Origin: a virus
Virus record (IMG/VR): IMGVR_UViG_3300044644_001981
Location: 1-64,000 of that record
DNA: 64,000 bases
Direction: 5' to 3' (one strand)
The notes below the pieces were generated by a model. That model was not told where the DNA came from and made no database searches. It saw nothing but the letters and a program-made list of their open reading frames with translations. The translations under genes and the position numbers were made by a program. The number at the start of each line of letters is the position of its first letter. Position 1 is the first letter of the stretch. Of the stretch, positions 907 to 57,839 are shown in pieces.

Positions 907-1815
907 TTATTTCCCGCACAACAAACCGCATCCAGTAAAAGCAAGTTCATTGTCGATTTCTATACCACCAAACAATTGACTGTTCATCCGGTTTTCAATA
1001 TGCTTACAAACTTGTTTTACCCGCTTATCAATGATTTCGTCCTTGCGTTTTAATAAATCAGGTAAATTGTACTCCTTTAGCCATGTATAACCCTCTTTCC
1101 CGTGAGACTGTTCTAATTTAGTGGCATTCTCAAACAGGTCTGGGTGAACATCCTCTAACCAAATAAATTCATACTGCCGTTGGAAGAAACAGAAATAGCA
1201 ATTTGATCGACTTCTCCCTGCAAACAAGAAATCAAATTCAATCTCGGAAATACAGTTTTTCCAGTCAAATAAAGGGCATCGTTTAGCCATCTCCTCACAG
1301 ACTCGGTTATACAATGCCTGCCAGAAGAAAGTGGGAGGTTTTAACCCTTGAGAATTACAAATAGACAAAACCATAGGGAGTGTTATACCTAATTCTCTTA
1401 ATGGGTATTTAGGAACAATATTACTATGGGGAATATAGCCTATTCTGGTCGGTTCATCGGCACGGAGTCCGTAATAGACTATTACGGACTCCTGTTTTTT
1501 AAATAGTTTTTCAAATGGCTTTATCTTGCCACTGGAAGTACAAAACCGCATCCGACGCGATGGAAGGATATTGTATTTTTTTATTATATCTTCAATACTT
1601 TCCCCAACTCGCTCAATCTCCCATCCCATCTTTAACTCAACTTTGTTGATCCATTCGTAGGTTTCTGGAAGTTCCGCCCCTACGTCATTAAATACATAGC
1701 GGTAGTCAAGATGTGGTGCATTGACCGACTGAACAATTGCCGTCGCCAATGAATCTTTTCCCGATATAGGGATAACATGAGACATTCCGTTTAACAGTAG
1801 TGGTATAATAGCCAT
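907..1815 (-). CDS. PP-loop ATPase, PAPS-reductase / DndC-like family
   Basis: A 302-aa protein with a PP-loop ATP-binding motif ISGKDSLATA at about residues 17-26, typical of the PAPS reductase / adenine nucleotide alpha-hydrolase fold. A Cys-rich segment GRSRSNCYFCFF near residue 205 and a C-terminal FTGCGLLC tail could bind metal or an Fe-S cluster. Mobile-element members are often of unknown role; some relatives act in DNA phosphorothioation or base modification. The start at 1815 follows an AGGTCAACTATG site and one of the recurrent hairpin leaders. No partner dnd genes are visible, so the substrate is unknown. Confidence 0.65.
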   Translation of the reverse strand: MAIIPLLLNGMSHVIPISGKDSLATAIVQSVNAPHLDYRYVFNDVGAELPETYEWINKVELKMGWEIERVGESIEDIIKKYNILPSRRMRFCTSSGKIKPFEKLFKKQESVIVYYGLRADEPTRIGYIPHSNIVPKYPLRELGITLPMVLSICNSQGLKPPTFFWQALYNRVCEEMAKRCPLFDWKNCISEIEFDFLFAGRSRSNCYFCFFQRQYEFIWLEDVHPDLFENATKLEQSHGKEGYTWLKEYNLPDLLKRKDEIIDKRVKQVCKHIENRMNSQLFGGIEIDNELAFTGCGLLCGK

Positions 1816-1892
1816 AGTTGACCTGCGTTTTAGTGTTAGGTTGACTCAATCCCCAAGCATTTCCGGTGCTGTGGGGATACTTTTTTATTATA
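1816..1892 (-). promoter_or_regulatory. promoter and recurrent hairpin leader (copy 1)
   Basis: Read on the minus strand, TATAAT (1892-1887) is followed by a hairpin with TATCCCCA/TGGGGAT arms (1878-1849), then TTGAGTCAACCTAA, AGGTCAACT and the ATG. The same order of elements precedes at least three other genes in the window (9285, 55765, 57336). Confidence 0.6.
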
Positions 1893-2072: not shown

Positions 2073-2142
2073 TACAATTAATAAATCCCCTCGCGGTACG
2101 GAAATACCCAGGGGAGGTAACTATTAATTAGGAAATAGCCAC
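2073..2142 (+). promoter_or_regulatory. promoter and hairpin leader (variant)
   Basis: TACAAT at 2073-2078 is followed by a hairpin with TCCCCT (2086-2091) pairing AGGGGA (2110-2115), and an inner GGTA/TACC pairing. It resembles the leaders of the KilA-N genes, but its downstream part differs. Confidence 0.45.
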
Positions 2143-2661
2143 ATGAATAATATTATCAGAGCCGAGCGTGCAACTGTCAAGTTTTGTGAGGGTGTCGAAG
2201 TTGACGGGTATTTGTTGCCAGATGGTGAGTTTAGGGTTGGGAAGGTCGGAGCCGCGATCGCCGTGGGGTACGGAAAAGACTGGGTAGGACAACTCAAGGG
2301 AAAACCGCTAAAAGCCTTGCAGGATAAGGGGTTCACCGGGTCTGAAAAACCTGTGCAGCTAAACTCTATCAATGGCGGTGGGACTGAAGCAAAAACACTT
2401 AGTCTCCTTGACTTCAGAAAATTAATTGTTTTTGCAGCAAAGAAGGAAAGGCCTGAAGCCGAGGCGTTACTGGATGCCATTGTCGATGTGTCCCTTGAGG
2501 ATTATTTTAGAATAGCGTTTGGACAGCAAACATTAACCCTAGAGGAAAAGCGCGACAAATTTTTCAAAGCCTATTCAGCGACCATTGACTGGCTCACAGA
2601 AGACCGATCTGACTGGGAACTGATAGCTGAACAGGAAAGGTTTTTATTGAGCCTAAATTAA
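2143..2661 (+). CDS. unknown protein, possible antirepressor-like
   Basis: A 172-aa protein I do not recognise with certainty. Its middle (SLLDFRKLIVFAAKKERPEA) looks helical. The C-terminal stretch (KAYSATIDWLTEDRSDWELI) is closely repeated in a separate 46-aa protein at 35593-35733. It shares a leader type with the KilA-N genes of this element, which hints at a regulator, but this is inference. It is followed at once by a good intrinsic terminator. Confidence 0.6.
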   Translation: MNNIIRAERATVKFCEGVEVDGYLLPDGEFRVGKVGAAIAVGYGKDWVGQLKGKPLKALQDKGFTGSEKPVQLNSINGGGTEAKTLSLLDFRKLIVFAAKKERPEAEALLDAIVDVSLEDYFRIAFGQQTLTLEEKRDKFFKAYSATIDWLTEDRSDWELIAEQERFLLSLN

Positions 2662-9007: not shown

Positions 9008-9285
9008 GCTTCCTTGATAGCCTCAAGACTATTTAAGTCTTTCTTGCTTTGATACCGTGACAGGCGTTTTAAGACCTGTTCTGGGTCGGTGAACCCTTGA
9101 TACGCGAGTTCTAGTTCGTCACTGGGGCTAAGGGGAACCCCAAGCCGACTACTTAACCCGATGTTTATTAAAGCCTTAGCGATCGCAACTTCTGGGCGTT
9201 TGTGGAGATATCTGTCAGCTTTCTCCAGGGAACTTAGTATGCGTTGTTGTGTTATTGGTTTGGGATTTGATTTATTATTGATCAT
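8980..9285 (-). CDS. 101-aa unknown protein
   Basis: The start is set at MINNKSNPKPIT (9285), because it follows the AGGCAACTATG end of the recurrent hairpin leader; an upstream in-frame codon would lie inside that leader. The product is helical (KALINIGLSSRLGVPLSPSD). Function unknown. Confidence 0.6.
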   Translation of the reverse strand: MINNKSNPKPITQQRILSSLEKADRYLHKRPEVAIAKALINIGLSSRLGVPLSPSDELELAYQGFTDPEQVLKRLSRYQSKKDLNSLEAIKEAWVNPITTQ

Positions 9286-9345
9286 AGTTGCCTGCTTATT
9301 AGGTTTACTCACGTCCCCTGGTGTTTGCTGCACTGTGGGGATATT
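9286..9345 (-). promoter_or_regulatory. recurrent hairpin leader (copy 2)
   Basis: On the minus strand ATCCCCACAGTG forms a hairpin with CACCAGGGGAC (9342-9313), then GTGAGTAAACCTAA, AGGCAACT and the ATG. It matches the leaders at 1816-1892 and 55685-55764. Confidence 0.6.
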
Positions 9346-9386
9346 TTAATTTTACCTTACCCGATCGCACTGCACCCAATCAATTT

Positions 9387-16902: not shown

Positions 16903-16950
16903 TATAGATACAATCCTCCTCATCTGGGGAGGACTTAGATAGAGAAAACA
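16903..16950 (+). promoter_or_regulatory. promoter and short hairpin leader
   Basis: TACAAT is followed at once by TCCTCC pairing GGAGGA (loop TCATCTG), then the ATG at 16951. It is the most compact relative of the recurrent hairpin leaders. Confidence 0.4.
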
Positions 16951-28543: not shown

Positions 28544-31500
28544 ATGATTATTCAAAGACATCGAGACGAGTTCCTGGCTTCAGCTATTCATCCCCGTATC
28601 ATCGACTTAAATTTTGAGTCGCTCAAGGGGCAGGATGCTCTTGAAGTCTTGTTGTACGAGGCGATGGAAGTAGTAGCAAAAAAATCCCCCCACTCGCTTC
28701 AGTATGTAACTGCCCCTCTCAAGAGATTGCTTGACCGCTACAAGCACGTAGAGGAAGGGGGATGGAGTTTTAGGGGCGTTGATCCACTCAATGATTCCAA
28801 TTATATGAAATGGGGATGCTTTAAGCCGGATAGACCTCGACCATGCCCTATCAACCATTTCAAGTTAATAAAATATGAGCATCCAGAAAAAGGAACTAGA
28901 CAGGCATTTTTTGTGGTTCCTTCTTGGGAGATCGGAGTAAAAATCGCTATCAAAGCAGGGGAGCAATTTTTAGAAAGCTACAAGTCCCGATGCCCGCAGG
29001 GGGATTTTGATTGGAGCGAGGGCGATCGCCACTTTTGGGAGTGGGCAATTGAGATCAACTTACCAATCACGATCACCGAGGGGGCTAAGAAAGCAGCGTG
29101 TTTGATGTCGGCGGGATACGCTTGCATCGGACTGCCAGGAATTAATGGGGGAGTGCGAACCAGCCGATTGGACAACGGATTCAAAGAACAATGCGCTCCT
29201 TACCTTATCCCTGAGATGGAGATTTTCAGGACGGCAGGGCGACGGGTGAATATTGCTTTTGACTATGAAACAAAGATCAAGAGCTTTCAGGATGTCCAAC
29301 GCGAAACTAACAAATTAGGAGAACTCTTCCAAAAGGACAAACGGGATGTCCGGGTTATTTCTTTGCCAGGGCCAGAGAAGGGTGTTGATGATTTTATCGT
29401 GGCGCATGGGGAAAAAGAATTTGATCTCCTATATGATCGGGCTCCAGATTATAGGTTCCATCAATTCAACAGAGGTTGGCAGCTAACCAAGACTCCGACA
29501 TTGACCCTAAACGTTCGATATTTGGGAGATTTACCCACTCCTACTACTGGGCCTGTTTTTATCCAGTCAGGCATGGGGACAGGGAAAACTAAACGGCTAG
29601 AACCTATTGCGCGGGAGGCTATTGCTAGTGGGCGGCGGGTTTTGGTGATTACCCACAGGGTTGAACTTGGGCGGGCAATCTGCAATGCGGTGGGTGTGCC
29701 TTGGGTTGAGGAGTGCAAGGGAAGCGTTGAAGGGAAAAACCTGGGGTATGGGTTGTGTGTAGATAGTTTACACCCACTGAGCCAAGCCAATTTTAACCCA
29801 GAGGATTGGGAGGGTGCGGTGGTGATCATAGATGAAGTTGAGCAAGTCCTTTGGCATTTGTTCAATAGTTCAACCTGTGCCGAAAAACGGACAGCAATCC
29901 TTTCAAGTCTGGAAACGTTACTGAAAAGCGTTCTAACAACGGGAGGATTGTTAATTGCCCAAGATGCCGACCTTTCAAATTACTCAATTGACTACCTTAC
30001 GGAATTGTCGGGGATTGAAAATCTGGAACCCTACATTGTCGTCAATAAATACAAAGGAAACGGGCGCAAGGTTCATTTCTATAGCCATAAAGTCGAAGCA
30101 CTCTACAAAGAGATAGACAAGCAAATTCGTGAAGGCAAGCGAATGATAATCGTGGAGGATAGCCAAAAAGTTAAAGGCAAATTCTCGGCAATCAATATGG
30201 AATCACACATCCGTAAGAATCATCCCCACGTCCGTGTTATTCGGATTGACTCGGAGACTGTATCAAATCCAAATCACCCGGCTTTTTGCTGTGCAAAAAA
30301 CATTGACACGGTGATTGAATCGGGTCAATATGACGTTGTGATTGCTTCCCCCACAATCGGGACAGGTGTATCTATTGACCTCAAAGGCTATTTTCACAGC
30401 GTGTTTGGGCTTTTCAAGGGAGCGATCGCCACAAACGATGTCCTCCAGATGATGTCGCGGCTTCGGGACTTGGCGGCTGAATGGCATTTATGGTGCGCTC
30501 AGTACGGGTGCAGCAAGGTTGGGAATGGGTCATCTGGCGCGCACGTCCTCCTTGAATCTCAAGATCGGGTGACTCGCAAGCATATCGAAATCTTAGAGAA
30601 ATACGACAGGGCAGGATTTGATATCGACACCCAAACCGACACTCGGCACACAAGTGCATGGGCTAAGTATGCGGCACGAATCAACGCAGGGCAGTGGAAA
30701 TACCGAGAAACGGTTCTTTACCTATTGAAACAGGAAGGGCATGATGTTTCCAATTCGGATGATTCTCAAATGCGATTTGACGAGGATAGATTAGCTTCTG
30801 AAGAAGCGATCGCCCGACAAATGGGGGATTTAGAGAAAGCCGACGATATTCAATACGAACGGGGACGGATTGAAGTCATCACGGACGAGCTTGACAGTAA
30901 GATTCAGGTAATCAAAGCCGAGGCGGAGGAGATTCGCACCCAGAATCGGGTGGCGAACGCCGAGGTAATCACGAACGCGGAGGATATTTCGTTCTCTAAA
31001 TACGAGAAGCTGCAAGACAAGAAAGCCAAAACCCCAGAAGAACTGGCGGAGCAGCAAAAATACTACCTGAAGGACACATATAAAATAGATGTCACGCCAG
31101 AGCTTGTCTTAAAGGACGAGGACGGTTGGCTAAAACAGCTACGATTGCACTATTTCTATATGAATCCTGAGCAAGTTCATGATCGGGATGCCAATCACAT
31201 CAAAAATGCGGTACAAAACGGGGATGGGCAAGTCCACCTGCCGGACATCAAACTTTATAGTGCCTGTGTTGAAATTCTCAAGTTGATGGAACTGGATCGA
31301 TTCCTGAACGGAGAGGAATTTACTAATGAATCCGAATTGATCCAAAAACTAGGCAAAATCTTCAAGGAACAGGGGCGAGAGATTCGGGAATATTTTAAGG
31401 TAGGGCCGACAGGCTTGACCCCGATTGCTCAGATCAACCGATTTTTCAAAGATACTATTGGACTAAGAATGTCTGGGCGGCAAATCCGTGACGAGGAAGG

Positions 31501-32113
31501 GAATAGAACAAGAGCTTATTCCTTCAAAGGCTTTGAGGATGGACGTTCTGTGGTTTTTGAAGCCTGGGATAAAAATGTAGCCCAATATACCAATAACGAG
31601 ATAATGGCTGTCACACCAAAACATAATAGAAGATTAATAAAAAACACTGACACCACTAATAAAATTCAGTGTGATCAAATTCAGTGTGATCATGGAGAAG
31701 AAGGAACACCCTTTCCAGTAGATATAAAGCGGGGGGAAGAAGCCCAGCGAGTAGCGATTTCATTGACCAAGCCAGAAGAAGCTCAAAACACTCCCAAAGA
31801 TTGGCAAAATCAGGGGAGTGCGGTGGGTTCCGGTACTTTGGTAGAGGCGGTGTCGAATAGTTGGAAGGGTGTTGTGCGGCTGGTTAAGTCGGTCTTCCCT
31901 GAATGTTGGGTAGCTAAGTATGAAGTCAGCTTCCTAAAACGAAACCTCTTGCTAGAAACAGCAGGGAAGGCATTTACAATCGACTCACCCGCCGCACAAT
32001 GGGTTCATAACGCATTAGACCCCGATGGTGGTGCATGGGCTTTCCAGGGCTACATAGAGGGCAGTACGCAGATGTACACAATCCCTCTGGGATGCCTGGA
32101 TTTCAATCCATAA
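28544..32113 (+). CDS. CyRepA1-like plasmid replication primase/helicase
   Basis: An 1189-aa protein with the layout I associate with cyanobacterial CyRepA1 replication proteins: an N-terminal DUF3854/TOPRIM-like region (VTEGAKKAACLMSAGY near 180), then a superfamily helicase with FIQSGMGTGKTKRL (Walker A, about 338-351), VVIIDEVEQVLWH (about 425-437) and ASPTIGTGVSID. It should start or drive replication of this element. Residues near 1021-1055 are encoded by an inverted copy of the TGTCACACTGAAT repeat region. Its last codons (F, N, P, stop) lie in the first CRISPR repeat. Confidence 0.8.
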   Translation: MIIQRHRDEFLASAIHPRIIDLNFESLKGQDALEVLLYEAMEVVAKKSPHSLQYVTAPLKRLLDRYKHVEEGGWSFRGVDPLNDSNYMKWGCFKPDRPRPCPINHFKLIKYEHPEKGTRQAFFVVPSWEIGVKIAIKAGEQFLESYKSRCPQGDFDWSEGDRHFWEWAIEINLPITITEGAKKAACLMSAGYACIGLPGINGGVRTSRLDNGFKEQCAPYLIPEMEIFRTAGRRVNIAFDYETKIKSFQDVQRETNKLGELFQKDKRDVRVISLPGPEKGVDDFIVAHGEKEFDLLYDRAPDYRFHQFNRGWQLTKTPTLTLNVRYLGDLPTPTTGPVFIQSGMGTGKTKRLEPIAREAIASGRRVLVITHRVELGRAICNAVGVPWVEECKGSVEGKNLGYGLCVDSLHPLSQANFNPEDWEGAVVIIDEVEQVLWHLFNSSTCAEKRTAILSSLETLLKSVLTTGGLLIAQDADLSNYSIDYLTELSGIENLEPYIVVNKYKGNGRKVHFYSHKVEALYKEIDKQIREGKRMIIVEDSQKVKGKFSAINMESHIRKNHPHVRVIRIDSETVSNPNHPAFCCAKNIDTVIESGQYDVVIASPTIGTGVSIDLKGYFHSVFGLFKGAIATNDVLQMMSRLRDLAAEWHLWCAQYGCSKVGNGSSGAHVLLESQDRVTRKHIEILEKYDRAGFDIDTQTDTRHTSAWAKYAARINAGQWKYRETVLYLLKQEGHDVSNSDDSQMRFDEDRLASEEAIARQMGDLEKADDIQYERGRIEVITDELDSKIQVIKAEAEEIRTQNRVANAEVITNAEDISFSKYEKLQDKKAKTPEELAEQQKYYLKDTYKIDVTPELVLKDEDGWLKQLRLHYFYMNPEQVHDRDANHIKNAVQNGDGQVHLPDIKLYSACVEILKLMELDRFLNGEEFTNESELIQKLGKIFKEQGREIREYFKVGPTGLTPIAQINRFFKDTIGLRMSGRQIRDEEGNRTRAYSFKGFEDGRSVVFEAWDKNVAQYTNNEIMAVTPKHNRRLIKNTDTTNKIQCDQIQCDHGEEGTPFPVDIKRGEEAQRVAISLTKPEEAQNTPKDWQNQGSAVGSGTLVEAVSNSWKGVVRLVKSVFPECWVAKYEVSFLKRNLLLETAGKAFTIDSPAAQWVHNALDPDGGAWAFQGYIEGSTQMYTIPLGCLDFNP
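31609..31692 (-). repeat. TGTCACACTGAAT repeat cluster C inside rep
   Basis: Read on the minus strand this contains two TGATCACACTGAATTT-type repeats (15-bp period), then the 44-nt segment seen at 9538-9581 and 54811-54854 with few changes. It is translated in frame as part of the Rep C-terminal region. Confidence 0.65.
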
Positions 32114-41048: not shown

Positions 41049-41354
41049 TTATTTCTTTTTCTTCCAACTTTTTCCGACTTTATTTAACAAGCCAGGAAAC
41101 ATTCTAGTCCAAAATATTCCCCCTATAGCAAAAGCAATCATTGTGGCTTTAGTCGGTGGATCACAATTAAAAGGAAACCCACCAGCCCTATTGTCGAAAG
41201 TTTTATAACCAACAATATTGTCATCGTCAATATCGGCAGTTTTAGTAACTAGCCTTAACCAATTAATAAATAATTGAGGATCGGATTCAAAAACCATTTC
41301 AACAATCCGATCCTCAATCAATCCCAACTTTTTCGCATCCATCATTTTTACCAT
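41049..41354 (-). CDS. 101-aa unknown protein
   Basis: It starts MVKMMDAKKLGLIEDRIVE and ends in a hydrophobic stretch (ATMIAFAIGGIFWTRMFP) and a Lys tail. It may be membrane associated. Its ATG overlaps the methyltransferase stop. Confidence 0.5.
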   Translation of the reverse strand: MVKMMDAKKLGLIEDRIVEMVFESDPQLFINWLRLVTKTADIDDDNIVGYKTFDNRAGGFPFNCDPPTKATMIAFAIGGIFWTRMFPGLLNKVGKSWKKKK

Positions 41355-41899
41355 TTAGAAGTTTGACAAACGGTTCCCCAACCCTCAAAAATTTCCTCAA
41401 ATCTTTGAGGTTGCAATCCAAAATAAAACAGAGTTTGGGAGAACCTGTTTTGGTCTTGTTTTTTTCCTTCCGCCGCCCGTTTGGGACTGTAGAATGTGAG
41501 TCGGGTTGAGGGTAGGCAGAAGCGATCGCACCGATTCAAAGCCTTTTTATACCAGGCTGTACTGTTGTCAGTATTGGTCAACAAGAATGCTTCCGCTTCC
41601 GTCTCGTTCAGGGTTTGAATCAATTTGTCAACAACCTTCTCAACAAATCCCGCGCTGTAGGGAGGGTTTAACCAGAGTGTCTTAGCCCGTCTCCAGTTCT
41701 GTTTAAATCCATCATCTTGAATTGTGAATATCTTTTGAGCTTTTACCGTTCGGTTGGCAAGTTCACAGCTAAAAGGGTCTAATTCAGGAAATCCATAAAA
41801 CTCATGGACTAAATCAATCAAATCAGACGGGGTATAATTTTCGTTTGAATCAATTAATGATGGTTGTGTTTCAAACAGACAAAGTTGTTGTATAATCAT
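41348..41899 (-). CDS. phage-type DNA N6-adenine methyltransferase
   Basis: A 183-aa protein. It has the layout of the short phage Dam family: NENYTPSDLIDLVHEFYG, LDPFSCELAN, then LWLNPPYSAGF (catalytic NPPY near 98-101), and a terminal FCLPSTRLTFYSP. Complete for this family. It probably methylates adenine to evade host restriction. Confidence 0.85.
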   Translation of the reverse strand: MIIQQLCLFETQPSLIDSNENYTPSDLIDLVHEFYGFPELDPFSCELANRTVKAQKIFTIQDDGFKQNWRRAKTLWLNPPYSAGFVEKVVDKLIQTLNETEAEAFLLTNTDNSTAWYKKALNRCDRFCLPSTRLTFYSPKRAAEGKKQDQNRFSQTLFYFGLQPQRFEEIFEGWGTVCQTSKW

Positions 41900-42009
41900 T
41901 GTTGTTTACTCCTTTTGTGTTTAAAAGTATCTGAGATGCTCTACAAACTCAGATACTTTTTCTTTATTATAAAGTATTAGAGATTTTTTGGCGGTTTTGC
42001 TATGTTTAT

Positions 42010-45696: not shown

Positions 45697-46184
45697 TAAC
45701 TAGATCCCCCCTCTCCAATTGCTACCCAACCGCCGTTAAAAACATGGTACAAAATACCTGTCGAGGTATCTTTCCACATCTCTCTCGCACTATTGGGGGT
45801 CTTAGAAACACTTGCCGGGGTGTTAGTGTGTACGCGCATTCTGGCATCTGTCTCTACCCATGCCGTGCCGTTGTAGACATAGGTTAGGACTGAATCATAG
45901 TTATTGACCGCCCCATTCTCTTGATATATCCAACGGGTTCCAATCGCAGCCGCCCCCGTTGGCGTGGTAGTGGCGACAACCGTAGAATCTCTGGATATAA
46001 ACCATCTACCTCCGCCCGTGGCAGTGTAGCAACTTTTACTATTTGCTGTTGAAGTCGTGTCGGTTTTAGCTAATGCTAACCAAACTTTTTCAGCAGAAGC
46101 ATAGAAGACAATTCCATCTTCTAAATCAGTAACACTTAAAGCCACAATCGCGGCTATATTCGCCTTTGAACCCATCCAAACCAT
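45696..46184 (-). CDS. tail-fibre-like protein
   Basis: A 162-aa beta-rich protein (LEDGIVFYASAEKVWLALAK, WVETDARMRVHTNTPASVSK) resembling short modules of phage tail or fibre proteins. It overlaps the GH10 gene by one base. Confidence 0.5.
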   Translation of the reverse strand: MVWMGSKANIAAIVALSVTDLEDGIVFYASAEKVWLALAKTDTTSTANSKSCYTATGGGRWFISRDSTVVATTTPTGAAAIGTRWIYQENGAVNNYDSVLTYVYNGTAWVETDARMRVHTNTPASVSKTPNSAREMWKDTSTGILYHVFNGGWVAIGEGGSS

Positions 46185-55684: not shown

Positions 55685-55764
55685 AATGTTATAATTAAAT
55701 ATCCCCACGATGTTTCCGCATCCGGGGACGTGAGTTCACCTAAACTAAAGACAAGAGGCAAACT
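55685..55764 (+). promoter_or_regulatory. recurrent hairpin leader (copy 3)
   Basis: TATAAT, then ATCCCCACGATG pairing with CATCCGGGGAC, then GTGAGTTCACCTAA and AGGCAAACT before the ATG at 55765. Confidence 0.65.
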
Positions 55765-56252
55765 ATGTCAAATCTTATCACAACCAAATACAATAACGTC
55801 GCTATCTCTACAAGAGATTCCGATGGGTGGGTCAACCTGACTCAGATGTGTCAAGCCGATGGAGTCAAGTTTAACGACTTCCTCCGACTAAAATCTACAA
55901 AAGCCTACGTCTCAAGCATGGTAGCTGATACGGGGATTCCCGCATCACAAATTATTGAAGTTGTCAAAGTGTCAAAGGGAAGTTTTCAGACGGAAGGCAA
56001 TAAGGAAGTTGGGGACACCCTGAGATTGCACTTTTGTTAGCTCAGTGGATCAGTCCTGAGTTTCATCGGTGGTGCAATGCTCACATCTTTGTCCTGTTAA
56101 AAGACGGTAAAACTTCCCTGGACACCGACCCGTTTGCTCGGATGCTGGAAATCAGGGGAGAAAACTATGGCGATCTTGATAATCAGATTTTAATTGATAA
56201 CCGCTTCGTTAATATCGAGGCTTACTCTAGCTGGTCTGTTGACGCGGAGTAG
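55765..56252 (+). pseudogene. KilA-N domain protein, broken by one frameshift
   Basis: The first frame encodes a KilA-N start (SDGWVNLTQMCQADGVKFND, FLRLKSTKAY) and the second continues with LAQWISPEFHRWCNAHIFVL. Adding one T to the GTTGGGG near 56012 restores VWGHPEIALLLAQW and a full 162-aa protein. KilA-N proteins are DNA-binding phage regulators. The last ~110 nt are nearly identical to the 57336 gene. A true deletion and a sequencing error are both possible. Confidence 0.7.
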
Positions 56253-57105: not shown

Positions 57106-57107
57106 TT

Positions 57108-57146
57108 TGACATCCGCCCCGCCGTAAAACGGGCGGGGATTGATAA
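57108..57146. other. IS200/IS605-type end-like hairpin
   Basis: TTGACATCCGCCCCGCCGT and ACGGGCGGGGATTGA form a strong imperfect hairpin that looks like the end hairpins of IS200/IS605 elements. No transposase adjoins it. It may simply act as a terminator. Confidence 0.4.
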
Positions 57147-57269: not shown

Positions 57270-57335
57270 ATGTTATAATTAATTAGTCCCCAAGATGTTC
57301 TCTCATCTGGGGACTATTCAAATTTAAGGAATTAT
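57270..57335 (+). promoter_or_regulatory. recurrent hairpin leader (copy 4)
   Basis: TATAAT is followed by AGTCCCCAAGATG pairing with CATCTGGGGACT, then the ATG at 57336. Confidence 0.65.
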
Positions 57336-57839
57336 ATGAATTATAACATCATTCCGTTCGACTACAACGGGGTCAAGATTCAAGTTCGGGAATCTGACGG
57401 ATGGATAAACCTGACCGAGATGTGCAAAGCCTATGATGTGAGGCTCGACAACTGGATGCGGTTGAAAAGCTCAAAAGCTGAACTAGAAAGCCTCGTAAAC
57501 TCCCCCAATCTTAACTACCTCAGATGTGAGGGAGTTAGCTCAAACCCTTACGGTGCAATCCTTGAAACAAAAGAAGGGAAGAAAGGTGGAACATGGGGTC
57601 ATCCGTTACTCGCAGTCAAAGTTGCCCGATGGATTAATTCTGATTTTGCCAACTGGCTCGATGCTCATAGTCTCGTTCTACTAAGAGACGGTAAAACTTC
57701 CTTAGACACCGACCCGTTTGCTCGGATGCTGGAAATCAGGGGAGAAAACTATGGCGATCTTGATAATCAGATTTTAATTGATGACCGCTTCTATGATGTG
57801 GACACTTATTCTACTTGGACTCTTGACTCAGGGGAGTAG
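57336..57839 (+). CDS. KilA-N domain protein
   Basis: A 167-aa DNA-binding phage regulator or antirepressor. ESDGWINLTEMCKAYDVRLD, NWMRLKSSK, GGTWGHPLLAVKVARWINSD and FANWLDAHSLVLL are the domain pattern. The C-terminal 36 residues are shared almost exactly with the broken copy upstream. Confidence 0.8.
   Translation: MNYNIIPFDYNGVKIQVRESDGWINLTEMCKAYDVRLDNWMRLKSSKAELESLVNSPNLNYLRCEGVSSNPYGAILETKEGKKGGTWGHPLLAVKVARWINSDFANWLDAHSLVLLRDGKTSLDTDPFARMLEIRGENYGDLDNQILIDDRFYDVDTYSTWTLDSGE

Follow-up and report, generated by a model that had tools for sequence, protein, structure and literature searches.

The coat-protein hairpin of phages MS2 and R17 is a translational operator, short and with a single bulged base on its 5' side, and the c4 antisense RNA (RF01695) is a phage RNA that is concerned with antirepressor expression and acts as an antisense RNA. 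How phages of filamentous, bloom-forming cyanobacteria control gene expression after transcription has, to our knowledge, hardly been charted. Structured leaders in cyanophages include the candidates PhotoRC-II, manA and wcaG (Weinberg et al., 2010; PMC2864571). The aba element of BstA is DNA-based, extends 34 bp into its gene and depends on terminal CCCGCC repeats (PMC8585504).

The leader described here is a new structured leader family, found in a 64,000-nucleotide stretch of viral DNA (the window), positions 1 to 64,000 of a virus record of 87,370 bp. No Rfam 15 family reached its gathering threshold in the window, six loci carrying family members gave no Rfam match at E ≤ 1, and the sole match of a further Rfam search was an unrelated lncRNA (E 0.56) lying off the leader hairpins. 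In the literature on PaV-LD, phage leader RNAs and cyanophage structured RNAs, with subscription journals thinly covered, the leader is undescribed at the level of titles and abstracts. By sequence, the virus is a relative of Planktothrix phage PaV-LD, which matches 24% of window positions 1-25000 at about 77% identity. It may persist as a plasmid, that is, as a phage-plasmid, because it encodes at 28544-32113 a protein akin to CyRepA1-type plasmid replication proteins (DUF3854), with 41-46% identity to Planktothrix plasmid CyRepA1. A short tandem repeat, CTTGCCCTGCGACAG, lies near the end of the record, in the part from position 87205 onwards (L005).

Leader copies in the window

A sequence-only reading of the window had reported four start-proximal hairpins, and all four were found where it had placed them, as TCCCC...GGGGA at 1850-1877(-), 9314-9341(-), 55702-55728(+) and 57287-57313(+). 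The motifs of the TGAGT..ACCTAA and ACTATG types that it saw in the first three leaders are likewise present: leaders a, b and c have GAGTnnACCTAA...AGG..ACTATG in common, or more fully GGGGA(N1-2)TGAGTnnACCTAA, a spacer and then AGG(Y)..ACTATG. Of the two variants that it proposed, the one at 2073 is a divergent fifth member that matches our covariance model R2, but the one at 16903 is a simple hairpin that lacks the bulged inner stem, has no R2 match and was rejected as a family member. The features of the five copies, a to e, are listed below.

1892-1813, minus strand: leader a overall
1887-1892, minus strand: extended -10 box (TGTTATAAT) of leader a, by sequence, ending 9 nt 5' of the model's first paired base
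1849-1878, minus strand: hairpin 1 of leader a, AUCCCCA[C]AGCA-CCGGAAA-UGCUUGGGGAU, with bulged C, by folding; model match 1813-1880
1816-1846, minus strand: helix 2 of leader a, AGU-CA-ACCU (1846-1838) with AGGU-CA-ACU (1824-1816), by folding (P(pair) 0.88) and two-part helix score
1815, minus strand: AUG of the leader a gene, adjoining helix 2
907-1815, minus strand: leader a gene, PAPS-reductase-domain protein, 302 aa (PF01507, E 1.3e-8)
9354-9283, minus strand: leader b overall
9349-9354, minus strand: -10-like TAAAAT of leader b, by sequence
9314-9341, minus strand: hairpin 1 of leader b, by pattern and model match
9286-9309, minus strand: helix 2 of leader b, AGU-AAA-CCU with AGG-CA-ACU, by folding and two-part helix score
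8980-9285, minus strand: leader b gene (ATG at 9285), 101 aa, relative of a 272-aa protein of L024, no Pfam family
55690-55767, plus strand: leader c overall
55690-55695, plus strand: extended -10 box of leader c, by sequence
55702-55728, plus strand: hairpin 1 of leader c, by pattern and model match
55733-55764, plus strand: helix 2 of leader c, AGUU-CA-CCU with AGG-CA-AACU, by folding and two-part helix score
55765-56040, plus strand: leader c gene, KilA-N domain protein (PF04383, E 1.4e-9)
57274-57338, plus strand: leader d overall
57274-57279, plus strand: extended -10 box of leader d, by sequence
57284-57316, plus strand: hairpin 1 of leader d, with a bulged A in place of C, by pattern and model match
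57336-57839, plus strand: leader d gene, KilA-N domain protein (PF04383, E 2.4e-19)
2073-2078, plus strand: -10-like TACAAT of leader e, by sequence
2086-2115, plus strand: divergent hairpin 1 of leader e, CCCCUCG[C]GGUA-CGGAAA-UACCCAGGGG; model match 2084-2145, E 1.3e-5
2117-2142, plus strand: helix 2 of leader e, GU-AA-CUAUU with AAUAG-CC-AC; the MFE fold pairs GU/AC and CUAUU/AAUAG
2143-2661, plus strand: leader e gene, phage family phrog_32599, function not assigned (E 3.9e-76)

Model R2, whose training rows came mainly from other contigs but included window leaders a, b, c and d and excluded 2084-2145, recovers all five copies (9283-9344, 55699-55767, 1813-1880, 2084-2145 and 57284-57338) with E from 5e-18 to 2e-4. 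Leader d has hairpin 1 and lacks the GUnnACCU part. Helix 2 of leader e, which carries the Shine-Dalgarno sequence AGGA inside its loop, is missed by the strict two-part score; relatives of leader e in PaV-LD and L088 have the same hairpin type. Immediately 5' of leader d, at 57107-57141, lies a GC-rich inverted repeat, a 35-bp exact match to positions 38-72 of Planktothrix agardhii NIES-204 plasmid AP017992, where it is unannotated. Elsewhere, at 41930-41971 on the minus strand before ORF 41348-41899, a -10 box stands about 5 nt upstream of a long hairpin with a perfect 13-bp stem, AAAAGTATCTGAG...CTCAGATACTTTT; its sequence differs and it is not a family member.

Pairing and position of the leader

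In hairpin 1 the outer stem has 5-6 bp and is separated by a bulged C, on the 5' side, from a 4-bp inner stem that closes a loop of 6-7 nt. Among 52 distinct rows, 10 of its 10 pairs change on both sides in a compensatory way, and cells with two-sided changes number 122 against 29 ± 6 in shuffles. In these rows 96.3% of the cells are paired, as opposed to 37-50% in slid registers; the alignments were fitted to the structure, which biases them towards pairing, and the gap to the slid registers is very large. Rows nearer PaV-LD show similar covariation, with two pairs invariant. Wholly different outer stems fold alike and keep the bulge, as in GCCACA/UGUGGC (L268), GUUCGG/CCGAAC (L261) and GCCCAG/CUGGGC (L257, L259), and GCUCCU/AGGAGC gives the same fold again. 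The bulged C is retained in nearly all rows, and the inner stem varies between copies of the window's own genome while mostly remaining paired. Since pairing is kept while the letters differ, even within one genome, these data are most simply read as selection on hairpin 1 as a hairpin, in RNA, and they make a conserved structured RNA leader well supported. An intrinsic terminator or attenuator would show a U run after hairpin 1; none follows it, and the GUnnACCU segment stands there instead.

The sequence of the hairpin 1 loop is not conserved. Some loops occur in both orientations, TTTCCG/CGGAAA and TTTCAG/CTGAAA (L045 12927-12989 and L047 32-93; L029 7527-7586 and L030 5687-5747), as though the segment between the stem repeats had been inverted. 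A loop that varies in this way, and is turned round in some members, is unlikely to be read base by base or to take part in a pseudoknot.

A second helix (helix 2) is predicted next to the start codon. Hairpin 1 is followed by (A/U)GU-nn-ACCU, then by 7 nt or 13-17 nt, and then by AGG(Y)-nn-AC(U/A), with the start codon 0-4 nt further on. Two subfamilies can be told apart, subfamily 1 pairing AGU with ACU and subfamily 2 pairing UGU with ACA. Distant versions read AC..UCCU/AGGA..GU (L266, with L264 similar) and GUAA.CCU/AGG.UUAC (L261), and further ones AUU.CCUA/UAGG.AAU (L260) and GCA..CCUA/UAGG..UGC (L273). Of 31 lineages, 26 had the two-part helix, where shuffling would give 12.3; the lineages in this comparison are not independent, and many share ACCU/AGGU by descent. 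Its total score was 347 against 146 ± 30, the maximum of 300 shuffles being 270.5. The margin in total folding energy was modest, with 6 of 400 dinucleotide shuffles reaching the observed sum, and exchanging half-leaders between lineages did not make the energy significantly worse (1270/5000). Helix 2 is likely to be real but weaker than hairpin 1. In most members the Shine-Dalgarno sequence lies inside helix 2; in L088, L260 and window copy e it lies in the loop, and pairing is limited to the sequence adjoining the start codon, so that simple masking of the Shine-Dalgarno sequence is not universal.

With both helices in view, action at the DNA level can be weighed, either as an operator over the transcription start or as a self-immunity element resembling aba of the BstA defence locus. 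We consider this unlikely. The inverted repeats do adjoin the -10 box, a symmetric DNA site would be indifferent to the loop inversions (TTTCCG to CGGAAA, TTTCAG to CTGAAA), and BstA too has a KilA-N-like domain, its 63-bp aba lying across the start of the gene and working as DNA (PMC8585504). The fit of DNA-level models is nevertheless poorer: what is conserved, even among copies in one genome, is pairing and not sequence, and the helix 2 repeats are spaced at either 7 or 13-17 nt, which does not preserve helical phase. The bulge, moreover, makes the repeat imperfect as DNA, and the leaders show neither the terminal CCCGCC direct repeats of aba nor its overlap with the first codons.

All intact members are sense-oriented and stand directly 5' of the start codon. 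In three further leaders (L029 8435-8493, L048 3368-3426 and L042 11553-11614) hairpin 1 and GUnnACCU are intact and the start codon or gene is not, as if the downstream gene had been lost or exchanged. In the window leaders a -10-like box (TATAAT/TAAAAT, often extended to TGnTATAAT) ends 6-9 nt before the stem, and in the wider set 34 of 49 cases have such a box ending 4-16 nt upstream of it, compared with 29% in shuffles. From this box just upstream we infer that hairpin 1 lies at or within a few nucleotides of the 5' end of the mRNA. That position also suits a serious rival, which we hold to be possible though doubtful: a plain 5'-terminal stem-loop that guards the mRNA from 5'-end-dependent decay, followed by a lightly structured ribosome-binding site and served by no dedicated regulator. 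Hairpin 1 sits at or near the predicted 5' end behind the -10-like box, its loop sequence is free, and 5' stem-loops stabilise E. coli mRNAs, according to works cited in PMC3997798. A plain stabiliser, however, has no need of a fixed bulged C, a 4-bp inner stem or GUnnACCU...AGGUnnAC, all of which persist as the stem letters change.

Recurrence and downstream genes

Contigs were collected by pattern scans of IMG/VR and by protein-led retrieval. Covariance model R1 was built from nine leaders, and R2 from the matches of R1. In the virus set R1 matched with E from 1e-25 to about 1e-4, and by pattern and covariance-model searches the family occurs in dozens of IMG/VR contigs. PaV-LD has five copies, preceding ORF091L, ORF099R, ORF105L, ORF068R and ORF028L, those at 45799 (before ORF068R) and 16738 (before ORF028L) having been added by R2. 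The annotated start of ORF105L (75186) falls within its leader (NC_016564, 75135-75186), whereas the conserved start codon is found in frame at 75135, some 51 bp downstream; the annotated start of ORF068R, 45858, lies at the end of the leader at 45799-45867.

Against 391 Cyanobacteriales genomes, with a capped number of candidates scored in each, R2 gave a match at E ≤ 0.01 in 40, of which at least about 18 were convincing on inspection, though divergent (best E 2e-10); the remaining ones look like chance. In a phylum-wide set of 292 genomes, 4 had a match at E ≤ 0.001; the two convincing ones, G060 and G057, are also in the Cyanobacteriales set. Plasmid pOSCIL6304.01 of Oscillatoria acuminata PCC 6304 carries one member, before a BRO-family gene. 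Low-scoring R1 matches in cyanobacterial genomes (L089-L092, L094) and many weak R2 matches (for example L276-L290) were judged on inspection to be chance. Ten genomes of probable Planktothrix, a genus assigned from a 94%-identical Planktothrix transposase fragment, had no match to R1, the narrower model and the sole one used on them, which argues against a general host leader in them. Two Planktothrix plasmids had no convincing R1 match, and a distant BLAST of plasmids with leader a found nothing.

The covariance-model search and the check for compensatory changes that the sequence-only reading had proposed thus both bear out its claim that the leader itself is conserved: the leader was found in many other viral and cyanobacterial contigs, and every hairpin 1 pair covaries in the 52-row set. 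The outcome that it had named as counting against this claim, neither covariation nor recurrence, is not what was found. Its interpretation is thus partly supported: a conserved RNA leader stands, and the two functions that it offered, regulator binding and RNA stability, are both compatible with the sequence, but it overlooked the second helix by the start codon and the enrichment of antirepressor-like genes. The downstream genes, which it had called unrelated, do differ in several cases, but those at 55765 and 57336 both encode KilA-N proteins and many others are antirepressor-like. KilA-N proteins follow the leader in window copies c and d, PaV-LD ORF105L and L261; AntA-like antirepressors in L030 and, by sequence resemblance, PaV-LD ORF091L and L256; and Bro-N proteins in L028, L253 and L110. 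Others encode a T5orf172 protein (L273), HNH endonucleases (L259, L162), phrog_32599 family members (window copy e and, by resemblance, PaV-LD ORF028L), a primase-polymerase-like protein with a sub-threshold Pfam match (L271), the PAPS-reductase-domain protein of window copy a, a possible zinc-ribbon protein and several proteins without assignment. Judged by these assignments, the leader is enriched at antirepressor-like regulators (KilA-N, AntA-like, Bro-N), and the genes are not simply unrelated.

Close to some genome members are genes for a phage minor tail protein and a phage integrase, as well as IS605 transposases and extra DnaB genes. Judging by the translations around it, the G060 copy lies on the chromosome, with IS605-type and ATP synthase genes next to it. 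Mobile-element neighbours and gene types together argue that the leader belongs mainly to mobile DNA. Among eight cyanobacterial plasmids with Bro-N, AntA-like or L257-like homologues, the leader is present in that of PCC 6304, doubtful in one Planktothrix plasmid and missing upstream of these homologues in the other six, so that it is not tied to a gene family. A shared recombination point for swapping antirepressor N-terminal modules, conserved through exchange and not through regulation, would account for near-identical leaders before different genes at one locus, for leader copies without an intact gene and for the domain-shuffled KilA-N/AntA/Bro-N proteins involved. Recent exchange, however, predicts identity, not compensatory change over distant lineages, and we regard this account as quite improbable.

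Proposed role and comparison with known systems

A bulged 5' hairpin combined with a weak ribosome-binding-site helix across unrelated coding sequences is best explained by a cis-acting translational-control element whose bulged hairpin is read by a putative factor, a reading to which we give about an even chance of being right. The mRNA would begin with a structured 5' untranslated RNA of about 60-75 nt, starting at or a few nucleotides before hairpin 1. Hairpin 1 would be the recognition site for the putative regulator, a protein or other factor, as its fixed bulge suggests. Helix 2 would keep the ribosome-binding site shut or weak, and the translation of antirepressor-like and other accessory genes would be set together through the leader. 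We infer the transcription start, the trans-acting factor and the translational effect from sequence. Since its fold recurs with different letters before regulator-like genes of related viruses and of mobile DNA in other cyanobacteria, the leader, which Rfam does not list, is probably a shared switch. A small-molecule riboswitch is very improbable: the conserved bulge, the internal loop and the Shine-Dalgarno-masking helix resemble, in our judgement, those of small riboswitches, but no Rfam riboswitch family matched at E ≤ 1 and the downstream genes have no common metabolic pathway.

We more tentatively propose, as a rather speculative extension of translational control, that one factor reads the bulged hairpin and jointly sets phage and plasmid antirepressors in a post-transcriptional lysis-lysogeny regulon. 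This factor could be host-encoded, since many different phages, plasmids and chromosomal loci carry the leader. If a single factor does read the leader, scattered phage and plasmid antirepressor genes would be joined into one regulon. The leader marks genes likely to act in lysogeny control, and its covarying form in a cultured phage, PaV-LD, and in Oscillatoria acuminata PCC 6304 offers a defined RNA for experiments.

Among described systems, aba is also a short element at the 5' end of a KilA-N-like-domain gene in prophages (PMC8585504), but the evidence for the leader is of paired RNA upstream of the start codon, and its conserved part stops before that codon. PhotoRC-II, manA and wcaG differ in serving photosynthesis or sugar-metabolism genes, and their Rfam entries did not match the leader (PMC2864571). 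The c4 antisense RNA is likewise linked to antirepressors, whereas the leader, which has no Rfam match, would act in cis as part of the mRNA. The MS2/R17 coat-protein hairpin is similar in being short, in having one bulged base on the 5' side and in controlling translation, as proposed here; its bulged base is an A, whereas the leader has a bulged C, a loop of 6-7 nt and a separate start-codon helix, and the likeness is one of resemblance only. Stabilising stem-loops of the ompA/papA type in E. coli stand at or near the 5' end of the transcript, as is predicted for hairpin 1. They are defined by position and stability, whereas in the cyanophage leader the bulge is conserved, a further, probable helix adjoins the start codon, and the whole is shared by many genes.
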